DNA of 64,000 nt from Nevskiales bacterium. Its GTDB lineage: Bacteria; Pseudomonadota; Gammaproteobacteria; Nevskiales; Nevskiaceae. Shown piece by piece: positions 30,089 to 33,734 of this stretch (position 1 is the first letter of the stretch; each line of letters opens with the position of its first letter). Where the stretch lies: NCBI GenBank assembly GCA_028698335.1, contig JAQVDP010000002.1:62001-126000 (forward strand). Reading direction: 5' to 3'. The notes under the pieces are model-generated. The model saw nothing but the letters and a program-made list of their open reading frames with translations. It was not told where the DNA came from and searched no databases. A program made the translations under genes and the position numbers.

Positions 30089-30576
30089 CGCAAGGATACC
30101 GGCGCGCCTATGTGGGGCTCGGCGCCAATCTCGGCGACCCCCCTCGGCAGTTGCGGCGTGCGCTGGAACTGCTGGGCGAATACGGGACCGTGCTGCGGGT
30201 GTCGTCGTTCTATCGATCGGCGCCGATGGGCCCGCAGGATCAGCCCGACTACTGCAACGCCGTCGCGATCATCGAAACATCGCTGGAGCCGGCGGCGCTG
30301 ATGCAGGCGCTGCTGGCGACCGAGCGTCGCTGTGGACGGGTGCGTGAGCGCAAATGGGGGCCGAGAGTCCTGGATCTGGATCTGCTCCATGTCGAGGGGG
30401 CGGTTTGCCAGGGCGATGCACTGACGCTGCCGCATCCCGGCATCGGCGTGCGTGCCTTTGTGCTGGTGCCCTGGGCCGAGATCGCACCGGAGGTCCAGAT
30501 TCCCGGGCTGGGACGGGTTGCCGATCTGGCCGCTGCGGTGGACGCCGCCGGACTCGGGCTTTGGGTCGCGGTTTGA
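30085..30576 (+). CDS. folK: 2-amino-4-hydroxy-6-hydroxymethyldihydropteridine diphosphokinase
   Basis: A 163-residue HPPK, which transfers pyrophosphate from ATP to the pterin in folate synthesis. Family motifs are YVGLGANLGDP at the start, SSFYRSAPMGPQDQPDYCNAV, and ERKWGPRVLDLDLLH, where the two Asp bind Mg2+, followed by LPHPGI. The ATG at 30085 overlaps the pcnB stop; upstream in-frame codons belong to the pcnB region. The pcnB-folK-panB order is common in gammaproteobacteria. Confidence 0.93.
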   Translation: MTQGYRRAYVGLGANLGDPPRQLRRALELLGEYGTVLRVSSFYRSAPMGPQDQPDYCNAVAIIETSLEPAALMQALLATERRCGRVRERKWGPRVLDLDLLHVEGAVCQGDALTLPHPGIGVRAFVLVPWAEIAPEVQIPGLGRVADLAAAVDAAGLGLWVAV

Positions 30577-30681
30577 GATCGGCGCGGGAGGCGCTTCTTG
30601 GCGGCGCCCCGGAAACGCGTCCGGATCTGCAAATACGCTAGACTTGCACCGCTTTAGATGGCGGGCGTTTCCGCCAGTGAC

Positions 30682-30757
30682 GGGCGTATGTCTTAGTGGG
30701 CCGCCCATTCTGAAAATCGAGCGGGCGACGCGTGTATGTCTTGGTGGGCCACCGTCG
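30682..30757 (+). promoter_or_regulatory. Tandem hairpin leader of panBC (candidate regulatory RNA)
   Basis: Two adjacent hairpins lie 67 bases before the panB ATG. Element 1 (30682-30706) has stem GGGCG/CGCCC closing the 15-base loop TATGTCTTAGTGGGC (30687-30701). Element 2 (30726-30757) has the loop TATGTCTTGGTGGGC (30735-30749) closed by GTG/CAC, a bulged C at 30731 and an outer stem CGACG/CGTCG. The same pair, in the same order, precedes panD. Conservation of the loops with changing stems points to an RNA structure. A 'pan' RNA motif is known upstream of pantothenate genes in other phyla; its identity with this one could not be tested. Confidence 0.65.
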
Positions 30758-30824
30758 TTCGGACGCGATGCCGGTATCTCCGCAGTCGCCATGACGCGGG
30801 GGCATCGCGAGGAGCCACACTCAC

Positions 30825-31649
30825 ATGGAAAACAGCAAGCCTGTCAACGTCGCCGAGCTGCGGCGGATGCGGGAGGCGGGGGACAAGATTGCCTGCCTGA
30901 CGTGCTACGACGCCAGTTTCGCCCTGGTCGAGGATCGGGCGGGGGTCGACGTGGTCCTGATCGGGGATTCCCTCGGCATGGTGCTGCACGGCGGCAAGAC
31001 CACGACTCCGGTGACGCTCGACGACATTGTCTACCACTCGCGCTGCGTGGCGCCGCACCTGTCGCGTGCCTTCCTGATGGCCGACCTGCCGTTCCTGTCC
31101 TACGCGACGCTGGAGCGGGCCCTGGATGCGTCGCAGCGGGTGATGCAGGAGGGCGGTGCCAAGATGGTCAAGCTCGAGGGCGGGCGCGAGCAGGCGAGCA
31201 TCGTCGAATACCTTGCCGTCCGCGGCGTACCGGTTTGCGCGCATCTGGGGCTGCAGCCGCAGTTCATCCACAAGATGGGGGCGTTCCGTGTTCAGGGACG
31301 CGAGGATGCGGCGGCCGAGGCGATGCTGCACGACGCTCGCGTGCTGGTCGAGGCCGGGGCCGATCTGCTGCTGCTCGAATGCATTCCGGCCGAGCTTGGC
31401 AAGCGGATTGCGGCCGAATCGTCGGTCCCGGTGATCGGGATCGGCGCCGGTGCCGATGTCGACGGCCAGATTCTGGTCCTGCACGACATCCTCAATATTT
31501 CGCCGACGGTGACGCTTGGGCGGACGCCGCGTTTCGTCAAGAACTACATGACCGACGGCGCCGACATCGAGCGGGCGATCGGCAATTATGTAGCCGAGGT
31601 CAAGTCGGGCGCGTATCCAGCCCCCGAGCATTGCTTCGCGGGGGCTTGA
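30825..31649 (+). CDS. panB: 3-methyl-2-oxobutanoate hydroxymethyltransferase
   Basis: A 274-residue TIM-barrel enzyme making ketopantoate from 2-oxoisovalerate and methylene-tetrahydrofolate, the first committed step to pantothenate and CoA. Motifs include MREAGDKIACLTCYDASFA, VVLIGDSLGMVLHG (with the Asp that binds Mg2+), MVKLEGG, VCAHLGLQPQ, LLLECIPAELG and VIGIGAG. GAGGAG stands before the ATG. The stop overlaps panC by one base (TGATG). The leader carries two conserved hairpins. Confidence 0.95.
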   Translation: MENSKPVNVAELRRMREAGDKIACLTCYDASFALVEDRAGVDVVLIGDSLGMVLHGGKTTTPVTLDDIVYHSRCVAPHLSRAFLMADLPFLSYATLERALDASQRVMQEGGAKMVKLEGGREQASIVEYLAVRGVPVCAHLGLQPQFIHKMGAFRVQGREDAAAEAMLHDARVLVEAGADLLLLECIPAELGKRIAAESSVPVIGIGAGADVDGQILVLHDILNISPTVTLGRTPRFVKNYMTDGADIERAIGNYVAEVKSGAYPAPEHCFAGA

Positions 31650-32497
31650 TGCAGACGGTTCATACGATCGCGGCGCTGCGCGAGCAGGTCGCACGCTGGC
31701 GCGAAGCCGGCGAGTCCGTCGCCCTGGTGCCGACCATGGGCAATCTGCATCGTGGACACCTGCGTCTGGTGGAGCAGGCCCGGGGTCATGCGCGGCGGGT
31801 GGTTGCGACGGTTTTCGTCAATCCTCTGCAGTTCGGAGAAGGAGAGGACTTCGGCCGTTATCCGAGGACCCTGGCTGAGGATCAGGCCCGGCTCGAGACG
31901 GCGCAGTGCGATCTGCTGTTCGCGCCGGACGAGGCGCAGATCTACCCCGACGGTCGCGACGATCTGAGCCGGGTCGTGGCGCCGCGGGCATTCGCGGAAC
32001 TCGAGGGTGCCCATCGACCGGGGCATTTCGACGGCGTCGCGACGGTCGTGAGCATCCTGTTCAATCTGGTGCAGCCTGATATCGCACTATTCGGTGAGAA
32101 GGACTATCAGCAATTGCAGCTGATCCGGCGCATGGTGGCCGACCTGCACATGCCGATCAGCATCGTCGGCGTTGCCACGGAGCGCGAGGATGACGGTCTG
32201 GCGCTGTCGTCGCGCAACCAGTACCTGGGCCCGGAACAGCGGCGAAAGGCGCCGGCGCTGCACGCGGCGCTCAGCGCGGTTGCCGCGGGGCTGCGCGGCG
32301 GGCGCCGGGATTTCGAGGCCTTGTGCAGGGAGCAGTTCGAGGCGCTTGCGGGACAGGGGTTCGAGCCGCAGTACGTGGCGATCCGTCGTCCGGACCTGCG
32401 TCCGTCCGAGGCGGGCGACACCGAGTTCGTGGTGCTCGCTGCGGCGGTGCTCGGCACCACGCGCCTGATCGACAATCTGCGGGCAGAGGCCGTGTGA
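31649..32497 (+). CDS. panC: Pantothenate synthetase
   Basis: A 282-residue ATP-dependent ligase joining pantoate and beta-alanine. The nucleotidyltransferase motif appears as PTMGNLHRGHLRL (usual ALHEGH replaced by NLHRGH). VATVFVNPLQFG, HRPGHFDGVATVV, FGEKDYQQL and LALSSRNQYL follow. It starts in the panB stop codon, so the two are translationally coupled. The longer open frame from 30452 runs through folK and panB in another frame and is not coding. Confidence 0.95.
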   Translation: MQTVHTIAALREQVARWREAGESVALVPTMGNLHRGHLRLVEQARGHARRVVATVFVNPLQFGEGEDFGRYPRTLAEDQARLETAQCDLLFAPDEAQIYPDGRDDLSRVVAPRAFAELEGAHRPGHFDGVATVVSILFNLVQPDIALFGEKDYQQLQLIRRMVADLHMPISIVGVATEREDDGLALSSRNQYLGPEQRRKAPALHAALSAVAAGLRGGRRDFEALCREQFEALAGQGFEPQYVAIRRPDLRPSEAGDTEFVVLAAAVLGTTRLIDNLRAEAV

Positions 32498-32538
32498 CAG
32501 GGGCGCGCGGGGCGCTTGCGGGGGAATGTGACGATTGT

Positions 32539-32567
32539 TTGATGCACTGCGCAATTCCGGCTAAACT
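32539..32567 (+). promoter_or_regulatory. Probable sigma70 promoter for panD
   Basis: TTGATG (32539-32544) and TAAACT (32562-32567) are 17 bases apart. Transcription would start near 32574, so the mRNA leader of about 136 bases would contain a GTGAC/GTCAC hairpin (32584-32597) and both conserved tandem hairpins. Confidence 0.5.
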
Positions 32568-32603
32568 CAAGCCTCTTCGCTCAGTGACCACAGTCACGGG
32601 CAA

Positions 32604-32683
32604 CGGGCGTATGTCTTAGTGGGCCGCCCGCCGTTCCAAGACCCGTGGATCGTCGTGTGTATGTCTTAGTGGGCCACCGACGA
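32604..32683 (+). promoter_or_regulatory. Tandem hairpin leader of panD (candidate regulatory RNA)
   Basis: This is the second copy of the paired hairpins seen before panB. Element 3 (32604-32630) has stem CGGGCG/CGCCCG and loop TATGTCTTAGTGGGC (32610-32624). Element 4 (32650-32683) has the identical loop (32660-32674), a GTG/CAC inner stem, a bulged T at 32656 and an outer stem TCGTCG/CGACGA. Compared with element 2, the outer stem keeps pairing with changed bases. CACGGG (32595-32600) and CCCGTG (32642-32647) could form an alternative helix enclosing element 3. The panD ATG is 26 bases downstream, close enough for effects on ribosome access. Confidence 0.65.
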
Positions 32684-32709
32684 CCAAGATCCTAGAGAGA
32701 CCATCCGCC

Positions 32710-33099
32710 ATGCAATTGCACATGCTTAAATGCAAGCTGCACCGCGCCTGCGTGACTCACGCGGAGCTGGATTACGACGGTTCCTGTGCGATTGATTCGA
32801 AGCTGCTCGAGCTGGCTGGCATTCTTGAGTTCGAGCAGATCGATATCTACAACATCAGCAACGGCGAGCGATTCACGACCTACGCGATCAAGGCCGAGCC
32901 GGGTTCCGGCATCATCTCGGTCAACGGCGCCGCGGCGCACAAGGCCCGTGTCGGCGATCGCGTCATCATCTGCGCCTACGGCACCATGGATGCCGGTGCC
33001 GCGCGGACCTACCAGCCGCGCCTGGTGTACCTGGACGAGAAGAATCGCGTCGAACGCACGGCCAACACCATTCCGGTACAGGCTGCTTCGGGCGCTTGA
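32710..33099 (+). CDS. panD: Aspartate 1-decarboxylase proenzyme
   Basis: A 129-residue pyruvoyl-dependent enzyme that makes beta-alanine for pantothenate. The self-cleavage site Gly24-Ser25 is in YDGSCAID. It opens with [18 protein letters not shown], then has [33 protein letters not shown] and a normal C-terminus. It has its own promoter and a leader matching that of panBC, so the two transcripts are probably co-regulated. The stop overlaps the next gene's TTG start. Confidence 0.95.
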
Positions 33100-33734
33100 G
33101 CGCGCGAGACGGCCAGGCTGCGGTTCGCGCCTGGTTTCCCACGCTGATCTATGCGCAGCGCCTGCAGGCCCGTGGCCTGCAGGCGCTCAATCGTGAGTTG
33201 CTCGACGAGTGCTATCGCATTCGCGATCACGACGTGAACGGACAGGCGTGGTCGGAGGGCAACTATCCGCTCGGCTACACCAGTTACGGCTCGCTCGATC
33301 AGCTGCATCGCTTCTCATCGACCTTCGACGCGTTGCGCGAGCGGATCGACGGGCACGTTGCGGCTTTTGCCAAGGCGCTGGACTGGGATCTGCGCGGCGG
33401 GCGCCTGCAGATGACCGACTGCTGGGCCAACATCATGCCGCGCGGATGCGCGCACAGTTTCCATATCCATCCGCAGGCCGTCGTTAGCGGGACTTACTAC
33501 GTCCAGACCCCGAAAGACTGTTCGGGTCTGAAGTTCGAGGATCCCAGGCTCAGCAAGTTGATGGCGGCGCCGCCGCGGCGTGCGCGTGCAGCCGAGGCGC
33601 ATCGGGCGCACATCGTCTATCCGGCCAAGGCCGGTAACGTGGTGCTGTTCGAGAGCTGGTTGCGGCATGAGGTGCCGGCCAGCGCTGTCGACGAAGACCG
33701 CGTCAGCATCAGCTTCAACTATCACTGGATCTGA
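33096..33734 (+). CDS. Putative 2OG-Fe(II) oxygenase (TIGR02466-like), TTG start
   Basis: A 212-residue soluble protein starting with [16 protein letters not shown] double-stranded beta-helix core is suggested by [22 protein letters not shown] and a distal His and Arg in LRHEVPAS and [11 protein letters not shown], the layout of the TIGR02466 group of putative 2-oxoglutarate- and iron-dependent oxygenases. The first metal motif is not perfectly clear. The only suitable start is TTG at 33096, overlapping the panD stop as TTGA, which implies coupling to panD. The substrate is unknown. Confidence 0.72.

Follow-up and report, generated by a model that had tools for sequence, protein, structure and literature searches.

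Tandem hairpins in the panD and panB leaders of Nevskiales, a probable RNA control element for pantothenate synthesis

The RNA closest in use to the element reported here is the pan motif (RF01749), which the passage devoted to it in Weinberg et al. 2010 (PMC2864571) presents as a stem in which two bulged A residues are conserved, known from three phyla, B. subtilis included, and mostly in tandem. Its authors suggest a dimeric protein-binding motif, and the same passage names no ligand or binder. We have analyzed a 64,000-nucleotide stretch from a Nevskiales bacterium (GenBank assembly GCA_028698335.1, contig JAQVDP010000002.1, positions 62,001 to 126,000 of the forward strand; hereafter the window), in which the leaders of the pantothenate genes panB and panD each carry two hairpins built around one conserved core. 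Judging from sequence comparison, these tandem hairpins are very probably a control element for pantothenate synthesis. Like the pan motif as presented in that passage, they stand in tandem in the 5′ leaders of pan genes, here in 73 of 73 places in related genomes, which is a likeness of use and not of membership; unlike it, they are predicted to combine a YAU bulge with a GYCU/GGGC helix and a UNKU cap instead of having two bulged adenosines, and they were found in Nevskiales only. The guanidine-II (mini-ykkC) riboswitch likewise places a tandem of two small, near-identical hairpins in a leader, with another loop sequence and other genes. An element beside the ribosome-binding site and an overlapping stop and start are familiar from leader-binding translational regulators and from coupling through an upstream open reading frame (uORF), except that here the uORF start seems to be copied from panD.

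The preliminary description of this DNA had placed four hairpin copies in two pairs, before panB (30825..31649, forward strand; NCBIfam equivalog TIGR00222) and panD (32710..33099, forward strand; TIGR00223), and so they stand. Their 15-nucleotide cores lie at 30687-30701 and 30735-30749 in the panB leader and at 32610-32624 and 32660-32674 in the panD leader, with starts 48 and 50 nucleotides apart, in agreement with the spacing of 48-50 bases noted there. As also noted, three cores are identical and one, at 30735-30749, is the odd copy, with an A-to-G change at position 9. With up to three mismatches these are the four core matches in the window (shuffle mean 0.33; none of 100 shuffles reaches four), and with up to two the whole 4.3-Mb genome contains these four and no others. 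All four hairpins lie on the forward strand. Hairpin A of panB (30682..30706) has a GGGCG/CGCCC stem around a UAU bulge, a GUCU/GGGC helix and a UAGU apex, and its core fold, like that of hairpin A of panD (32605..32629), is predicted by analogy with the folds of relatives. Hairpin B of panB (30726..30757) reads CGACG-C(bulge)-GTG / CAC-CGTCG around the conserved core, and hairpin B of panD (32650..32683) reads TCGTCG-T(bulge)-GTG / CAC-CGACGA. The stems claimed earlier for the first two elements, GGGCG/CGCCC in the one and GTG/CAC with a one-base bulge and an outer stem in the other, are therefore as described.

The occurrence of the element was followed with a covariance model of the tandem, built from 19 leaders, and with a model of the single hairpin. 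Among 85 genomes of the order, 58 of them from the window's family (f1), the tandem model has 75 places in 57 genomes, namely 56 of the 58 f1 genomes and one genome of family f5, and none in the 26 genomes that represent four further families; the core pattern is paired across the family. Two f1 genomes, G048 and G035, lack the element, and PanD was likewise not matched in them; in G048 PanB has no match, and in G035 it is represented by no more than a fragment where a contig ends. With completeness near 90% in either genome, the gaps may reflect missing sequence instead of true loss. The single-hairpin model finds two or four hairpins in each element-bearing f1 genome, the exceptions being G031, with a single hairpin, and G014, with a weak third one (G014:C29, E 0.006, taken as chance), with no convincing lone hairpin in the 58 genomes. 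At 20 PanD loci of other families of the order it gives no match better than E 0.9 with filters off, and the f6 genomes G076, G077 and G081 show no PanD match, G082-G084 lying outside the PanD search.

Beyond the order, the tandem model matched only the window's own genome in a class sample of 369 genomes, and a search of 398 genomes gave one further match (E 0.005, taken as chance); whole-genome searches covering more than 40 genomes were filtered more strictly, with few candidates scored in each genome (12 in the 369-genome set, 17 in the 398-genome set), so that weak distant relatives could be missed. An exact scan for the paired pattern in 84,980 species genomes, which misses diverged copies, returned 61 loci, of which 47 reach 60 bits with the tandem model; the other 14 score 21 bits at best or do not match. 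Most of the 47 bear what we take to be names of Nevskiales genera, and Solimonas belongs to the order. Four element-bearing records (L065, L075, L079, L094) are labelled Rhodospirillales, Verrucomicrobia and Lysobacteraceae; by inspection they appear to match genomes of the window's family, and the labels look wrong. A blastn search of 72,556 plasmid records with the panB leader gave no match.

The association with pantothenate genes is exclusive in the genomes searched. Each of the 73 fetched places, the window's own two left out, immediately precedes a pan gene on its own strand, panD in 56 cases and panB in 17, the model ending 18-34 nucleotides before the ATG in 56 of 56 panD copies and 50-145 nucleotides before the matched start in panB copies. 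Conservation of the loops before pan genes of relatives, on which the preliminary description had staked its reading beforehand, is what was found. A panD copy alone is present in 39 genomes, and the panB loci of the 30 that were checked carry no element at panB, the strong matches there being on the panD side and the remainder scoring 15.7 bits or less. Many element-free panB genes show, by eye, a TATAGT-like box near the start.

Both hairpins are present in 73 of 73 places, with core starts 46-53 nucleotides apart and a linker of 21-28 nucleotides between them. For structure the duplicates were collapsed, the counts run over related species, and the hairpins B of L188 and L194, which have a 16-nucleotide core, were left out of the alignment, of the hairpin B counts and of the hairpin B and inter-hairpin tests. 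Folding alone gives the same core fold in 135 of 146 hairpins: a stem, a YAU bulge, four GYCU/GGGC pairs and a four-base UNKU apex. The 15 nucleotides taken earlier for a loop are thus a conserved core, as claimed, and not an open loop; they are predicted to form a 3-nucleotide bulge, a 4-bp helix and a 4-nucleotide apex. The core helix is almost invariant, its sole covariation being a one-sided U or C opposite G (108 to 18); the 16-nucleotide cores of L188 and L194 have their additional base near the apex, as a loop would allow, and the middle core position is free to vary. The one-base bulge of the second hairpin holds in the window and does not extend to relatives as a general trait, since 48 and 40 of 63 distinct second hairpins keep an unbroken G-C pair at the two bulge positions.

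The outer stems covary among relatives, which bears out the earlier remark that they keep pairing while their bases change. One outer-stem pair is C-G in 59, U-A in 34, U-G in 30 and otherwise in 3 of 126 distinct hairpins, and it ranks first by z among all column pairs when the two hairpins are combined and for hairpin A by itself, though not for hairpin B. Double-sided pair changes fill 50 cells, compared with 14.6 in shuffles and with none of 500 shuffles as high, and both the covariation score and the percentage paired also exceed all 500, so that three of five measures do. Across five stem pairs, G-U and U-G cells number 33 and A-C and C-A cells 2, an asymmetry which argues for an RNA on the pan-gene strand and not a DNA palindrome; in the 19 leaders gathered through the core sequence alone, the C-G/U-A/U-G columns hold eight U-G and no C-A. 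Pairing of the 3′ strand of hairpin A with the 5′ strand of hairpin B was set aside by inspection, because several Solimonas leaders change the strands of hairpin B together with their own partners.

The hairpins lie in what would be the transcribed leader, given that they mostly begin 32-37 nucleotides downstream of a promoter-like motif. This motif, TTGN3-N16-18-TANANT, precedes the element in 63 of 73 leaders of relatives and in 1 of 1460 shuffles, the transcription start being placed by motifs alone. In the window, a TTGATG-17-TAAACT candidate promoter precedes the panD pair (32539..32567, forward strand), and a -10-like TAGACT box (30639..30644, forward strand), with no good -35 seen, lies 37 nucleotides before hairpin A of panB, a usual distance among relatives; a strict promoter scan of the window region reported neither. 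The element combines compensatory change of paired bases with a place in the transcribed leader of a coherent gene set, as a structured cis-regulatory RNA does. Conservation at pan genes and stem covariation thus support the earlier proposal of a structured regulatory RNA, which would by the same comparison co-regulate pantothenate synthesis.

Where the control may act is suggested by the start codons. The panD start lies 29-45 nucleotides past the core of hairpin B. In genus g3, which includes records named Nevskia, nine of nine panB leaders (L148, L150, L157, L159, L162, L181, L188, L190, L192) carry a uORF of 20-38 codons that starts 29-33 nucleotides past the same core, with ATG in eight and GTG in one (L181), while its stop codon shares bases with the start codon of panB as RTGA (ATGA or GTGA) despite the differing lengths; the panB start was assigned from frame, Shine-Dalgarno sequence and overlap. 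Eight uORF start windows were compared with panD starts, and six show a likeness above the shuffle maximum of 23 to 26: out of 41 positions, L148 scores 33 (shuffle maximum 26), L157 29, L159 28, L150 26, L192 25 and L162 24. Since the uORF starts sit where panD would start and their stops overlap the panB start, control is likely to be exerted at translation initiation. Two further observations point the same way: most Solimonas-type panB leaders have another predicted hairpin between hairpin B and the Shine-Dalgarno sequence, in several cases pairing with the latter, and a scan of the window region showed no terminator-like site, so that an intrinsic terminator was rejected. The simplest reading of these sequences is that the panD leader and first codons were copied ahead of panB in g3. 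Further ATGs occur in the leaders of L148, L150 and L190, one in L150 stopping early. Among the other eight fetched panB leaders, L189 of g1 (start at +23) also has an overlapping stop, its start showing no likeness to panD starts above shuffles (16), and L187 has an ATG at +36 without overlap; the remaining ones show no upstream ATG with a stop among the candidates. In the window, two ATGs precede panB within its leader: one stops inside the leader and the other meets no stop in 600 bases.

Taken together, we rather favor the view that the tandem hairpins form a new family of cis-regulatory RNA in Nevskiales, which would set the translation of panD and panB through a putative bound factor. 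Each pan transcript would open with a promoter, often an upstream hairpin (P0), hairpin A, a linker of 21-28 nucleotides, hairpin B and a ribosome-binding site. Both hairpins would display one nearly invariant surface, in which a YAU bulge lies over the GYCU/GGGC helix with a UNKU cap, and they may together form a single site, bound most probably by a dimeric or cooperative trans factor. This factor is probably a protein, which we prefer to a small molecule, as a judgement, because the unit is small, strictly conserved in sequence and duplicated. It may report pantothenate or coenzyme A (CoA) sufficiency, and its binding would alter initiation at the start codon 29-45 nucleotides beyond the core of hairpin B, this start being panD itself or, in panB leaders of the Nevskia type, the short uORF coupled to panB. 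From pathway logic, we infer end-product repression as the sign of control. A fuller scenario, which we hold tentatively as falling somewhat short of an even chance, is a dimeric sensor RNA, either a riboswitch or an RNA with its sensor protein, for the pantothenate/CoA pathway; it would have arisen at panD in Nevskiales and, in the Nevskia lineage if not more widely, been copied together with the panD start to panB, the transferred start there turning into a leader ORF that relays the signal by translational coupling.

Several observations weigh against this protein-bound, translational reading or its parts. Two measures of covariation stay within shuffles, as pairs with double-sided change are matched by 58 of 500 and further pair types by 185 of 500, and covariation is weaker in the 19 core-gathered leaders (9 of 500 shuffles reach the score). 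Most copies were collected with a stem-bearing model, which leans to pairing, and the sequences are related, so that shuffle counts do not equal probabilities. Because the core helix is almost invariant, its pairing is predicted from folding energy and one-sided U/C change and not proven, and folds of whole leaders often favor other structures over hairpin A or B. In Solimonas-type panB leaders the start is far from hairpin B, and the hairpin that bridges the gap differs from leader to leader (L191 has no clear one). The uORF starts of L190 (23, maximum 24) and L188 (21, maximum 27) do not rise above shuffles, and the GTG start of L181 lay outside the comparison. Finally, only 13 of 54 panD leaders surpass all 20 shuffles in a pairing between the 5′ half of hairpin A and the ribosome-binding region, so that there is no single conserved switch and this alternative pairing is a lead, not a rule.

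The last point bears on whether the hairpins themselves could bind a metabolite, be it pantothenate, beta-alanine or a compound of the CoA pathway, perhaps as a dimer in the manner of the guanidine-II tandem hairpins. Such a metabolite-binding riboswitch is a serious rival, which we regard as less likely than not. The exclusive tie to one pathway, the near-invariant unpaired YAU, the strict company of two equal units and the predicted bistability of a subset of leaders would all suit it. The window's panD leader belongs to this subset and is predicted to be bistable: its Shine-Dalgarno sequence and spacer (AGAGAG; 32694..32709, forward strand) could base-pair with hairpin A in its 5′ half, with a value of 0.80 versus 0.12 when the region is shuffled and 1 of 20 shuffles as high, and over 48 leaders 3 of 100 partner permutations did as well as the true combination. 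However, a 25-nucleotide hairpin with a 3-nucleotide bulge is small for an aptamer pocket, and the 13 of 54 panD leaders just mentioned, together with the Shine-Dalgarno-pairing hairpins predicted in several panB leaders, do not clearly amount to a conserved expression platform. Inter-hairpin column pairs reach z values of up to 6.3 (A9-B9, A5-B9, A3-B5 and others), and none resembles base pairing; shared ancestry would give such signals.

The remaining alternatives do less well. A DNA operator for a transcription factor, hairpin-like merely through its palindromy, would lie near a promoter and contain inverted repeats, as is the case here; we consider it very unlikely, as the conserved core is non-palindromic and on one strand, G-U outweighs A-C by 33 to 2, the position is mostly 32-37 nucleotides downstream of the promoter-like motif, hence in the transcribed leader, the core spacing varies over 46-53 nucleotides, and the uORF geometry points to translation. 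Targets of an antisense small RNA, which one conserved sequence in two transcripts might suggest, seem scarcely credible. The genome contains no reverse-strand 15-mer match at up to two mismatches, which rejects a fully complementary RNA, short or interrupted complementarity lying outside that search; moreover, most conserved core bases are predicted to be paired, and the middle position varies freely. Divergent membership of RF01749 would account for the same genes, the tandem hairpins and the 5′ leader, as far as the passage in PMC2864571 describes them, and the preliminary description had left open whether the element belongs to that family or to a new class. We give membership next to no weight, as the two bulged adenosines are lacking and RF01749 matches none of the 58 f1 genomes at E 0.1 with stricter filters, while the same search detects B. 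subtilis and Bacteroides ihuae among 14 control genomes, one over the cut-off; a new class is therefore favored. Against Rfam 15 (4227 families), two tRNAs are the only window matches at the gathering score, and at E up to 5 nothing matches in 30560-32720. No description of the element was met in the open-access literature searched, a survey of 224 candidate RNAs lying outside that search. A word search of PMC11109978 returned no pan terms.

Synthesis of pantothenate (vitamin B5) feeds all CoA, and control of that synthesis at the RNA level is little understood. A new Nevskiales family that sets panD and panB translation would represent a second solution, unrelated to the pan motif and with the same tandem logic. 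As some of the species that carry the element are in culture (among them Solimonas, Hydrocarboniphaga and Sinimarinibacterium), its ligand or protein can be hunted directly. Reuse of the panD start in panB leaders would also provide a concrete route for copying a regulatory RNA to a second gene of a pathway.

Additional features surround the four hairpins in the window. By NCBIfam models the gene neighborhood comprises folK, panB, panC, panD and a TIGR02466 family protein, the latter directly after panD (33096-33734); panC (31649..32497, forward strand; TIGR00018) is without an element of its own. P0 is a tentative part of the leader, represented in the window by GGCGG/CCGCC before panB (30660..30675, forward strand) and by GTGAC-CACA-GTCAC before panD (32584..32597, forward strand). 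In relatives it is variable, often GTGAC-N4-GTCAC, and situated just downstream of the promoter-like motif. A hairpin in this position beats shuffles at 0.05 or below in 27 of 72 leaders of relatives and at 0.1 or below in 42, which hints that P0 may be common, not universal. Its sequence resembles the TGTGA-N6-TCACA palindrome, which we take to be a CRP-type site. A further predicted hairpin, P3 (GCGATGCC/GGCATCGC; 30764..30809, forward strand), lies between hairpin B and the Shine-Dalgarno sequence of panB.

Control of PanD through PanZ and the panD leaders of other families were also looked at. PanZ has weak matches in 3 of 58 f1 genomes, one over the cut-off, in a search that detects the E. 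coli and Synechococcus controls, and is therefore not convincingly present as another control of PanD. In family f6, the PanD-like proteins of G065:C28 and G068:C58 (L220 and L219) are only 37-39% identical, and the fetched stretch around their genes holds neither a panB nor a panC match. Upstream of panD in family f3, leaders L207 and L210, and by sequence also L213, have a different, long GC-rich hairpin of the GCTGGTGCG...GCGCCAGC type, predicted in L207 and L210 and absent from the best fold of L213, and a GAGGTTCGCC stretch stands before the panD ATG; this hairpin is possibly another panD leader RNA.
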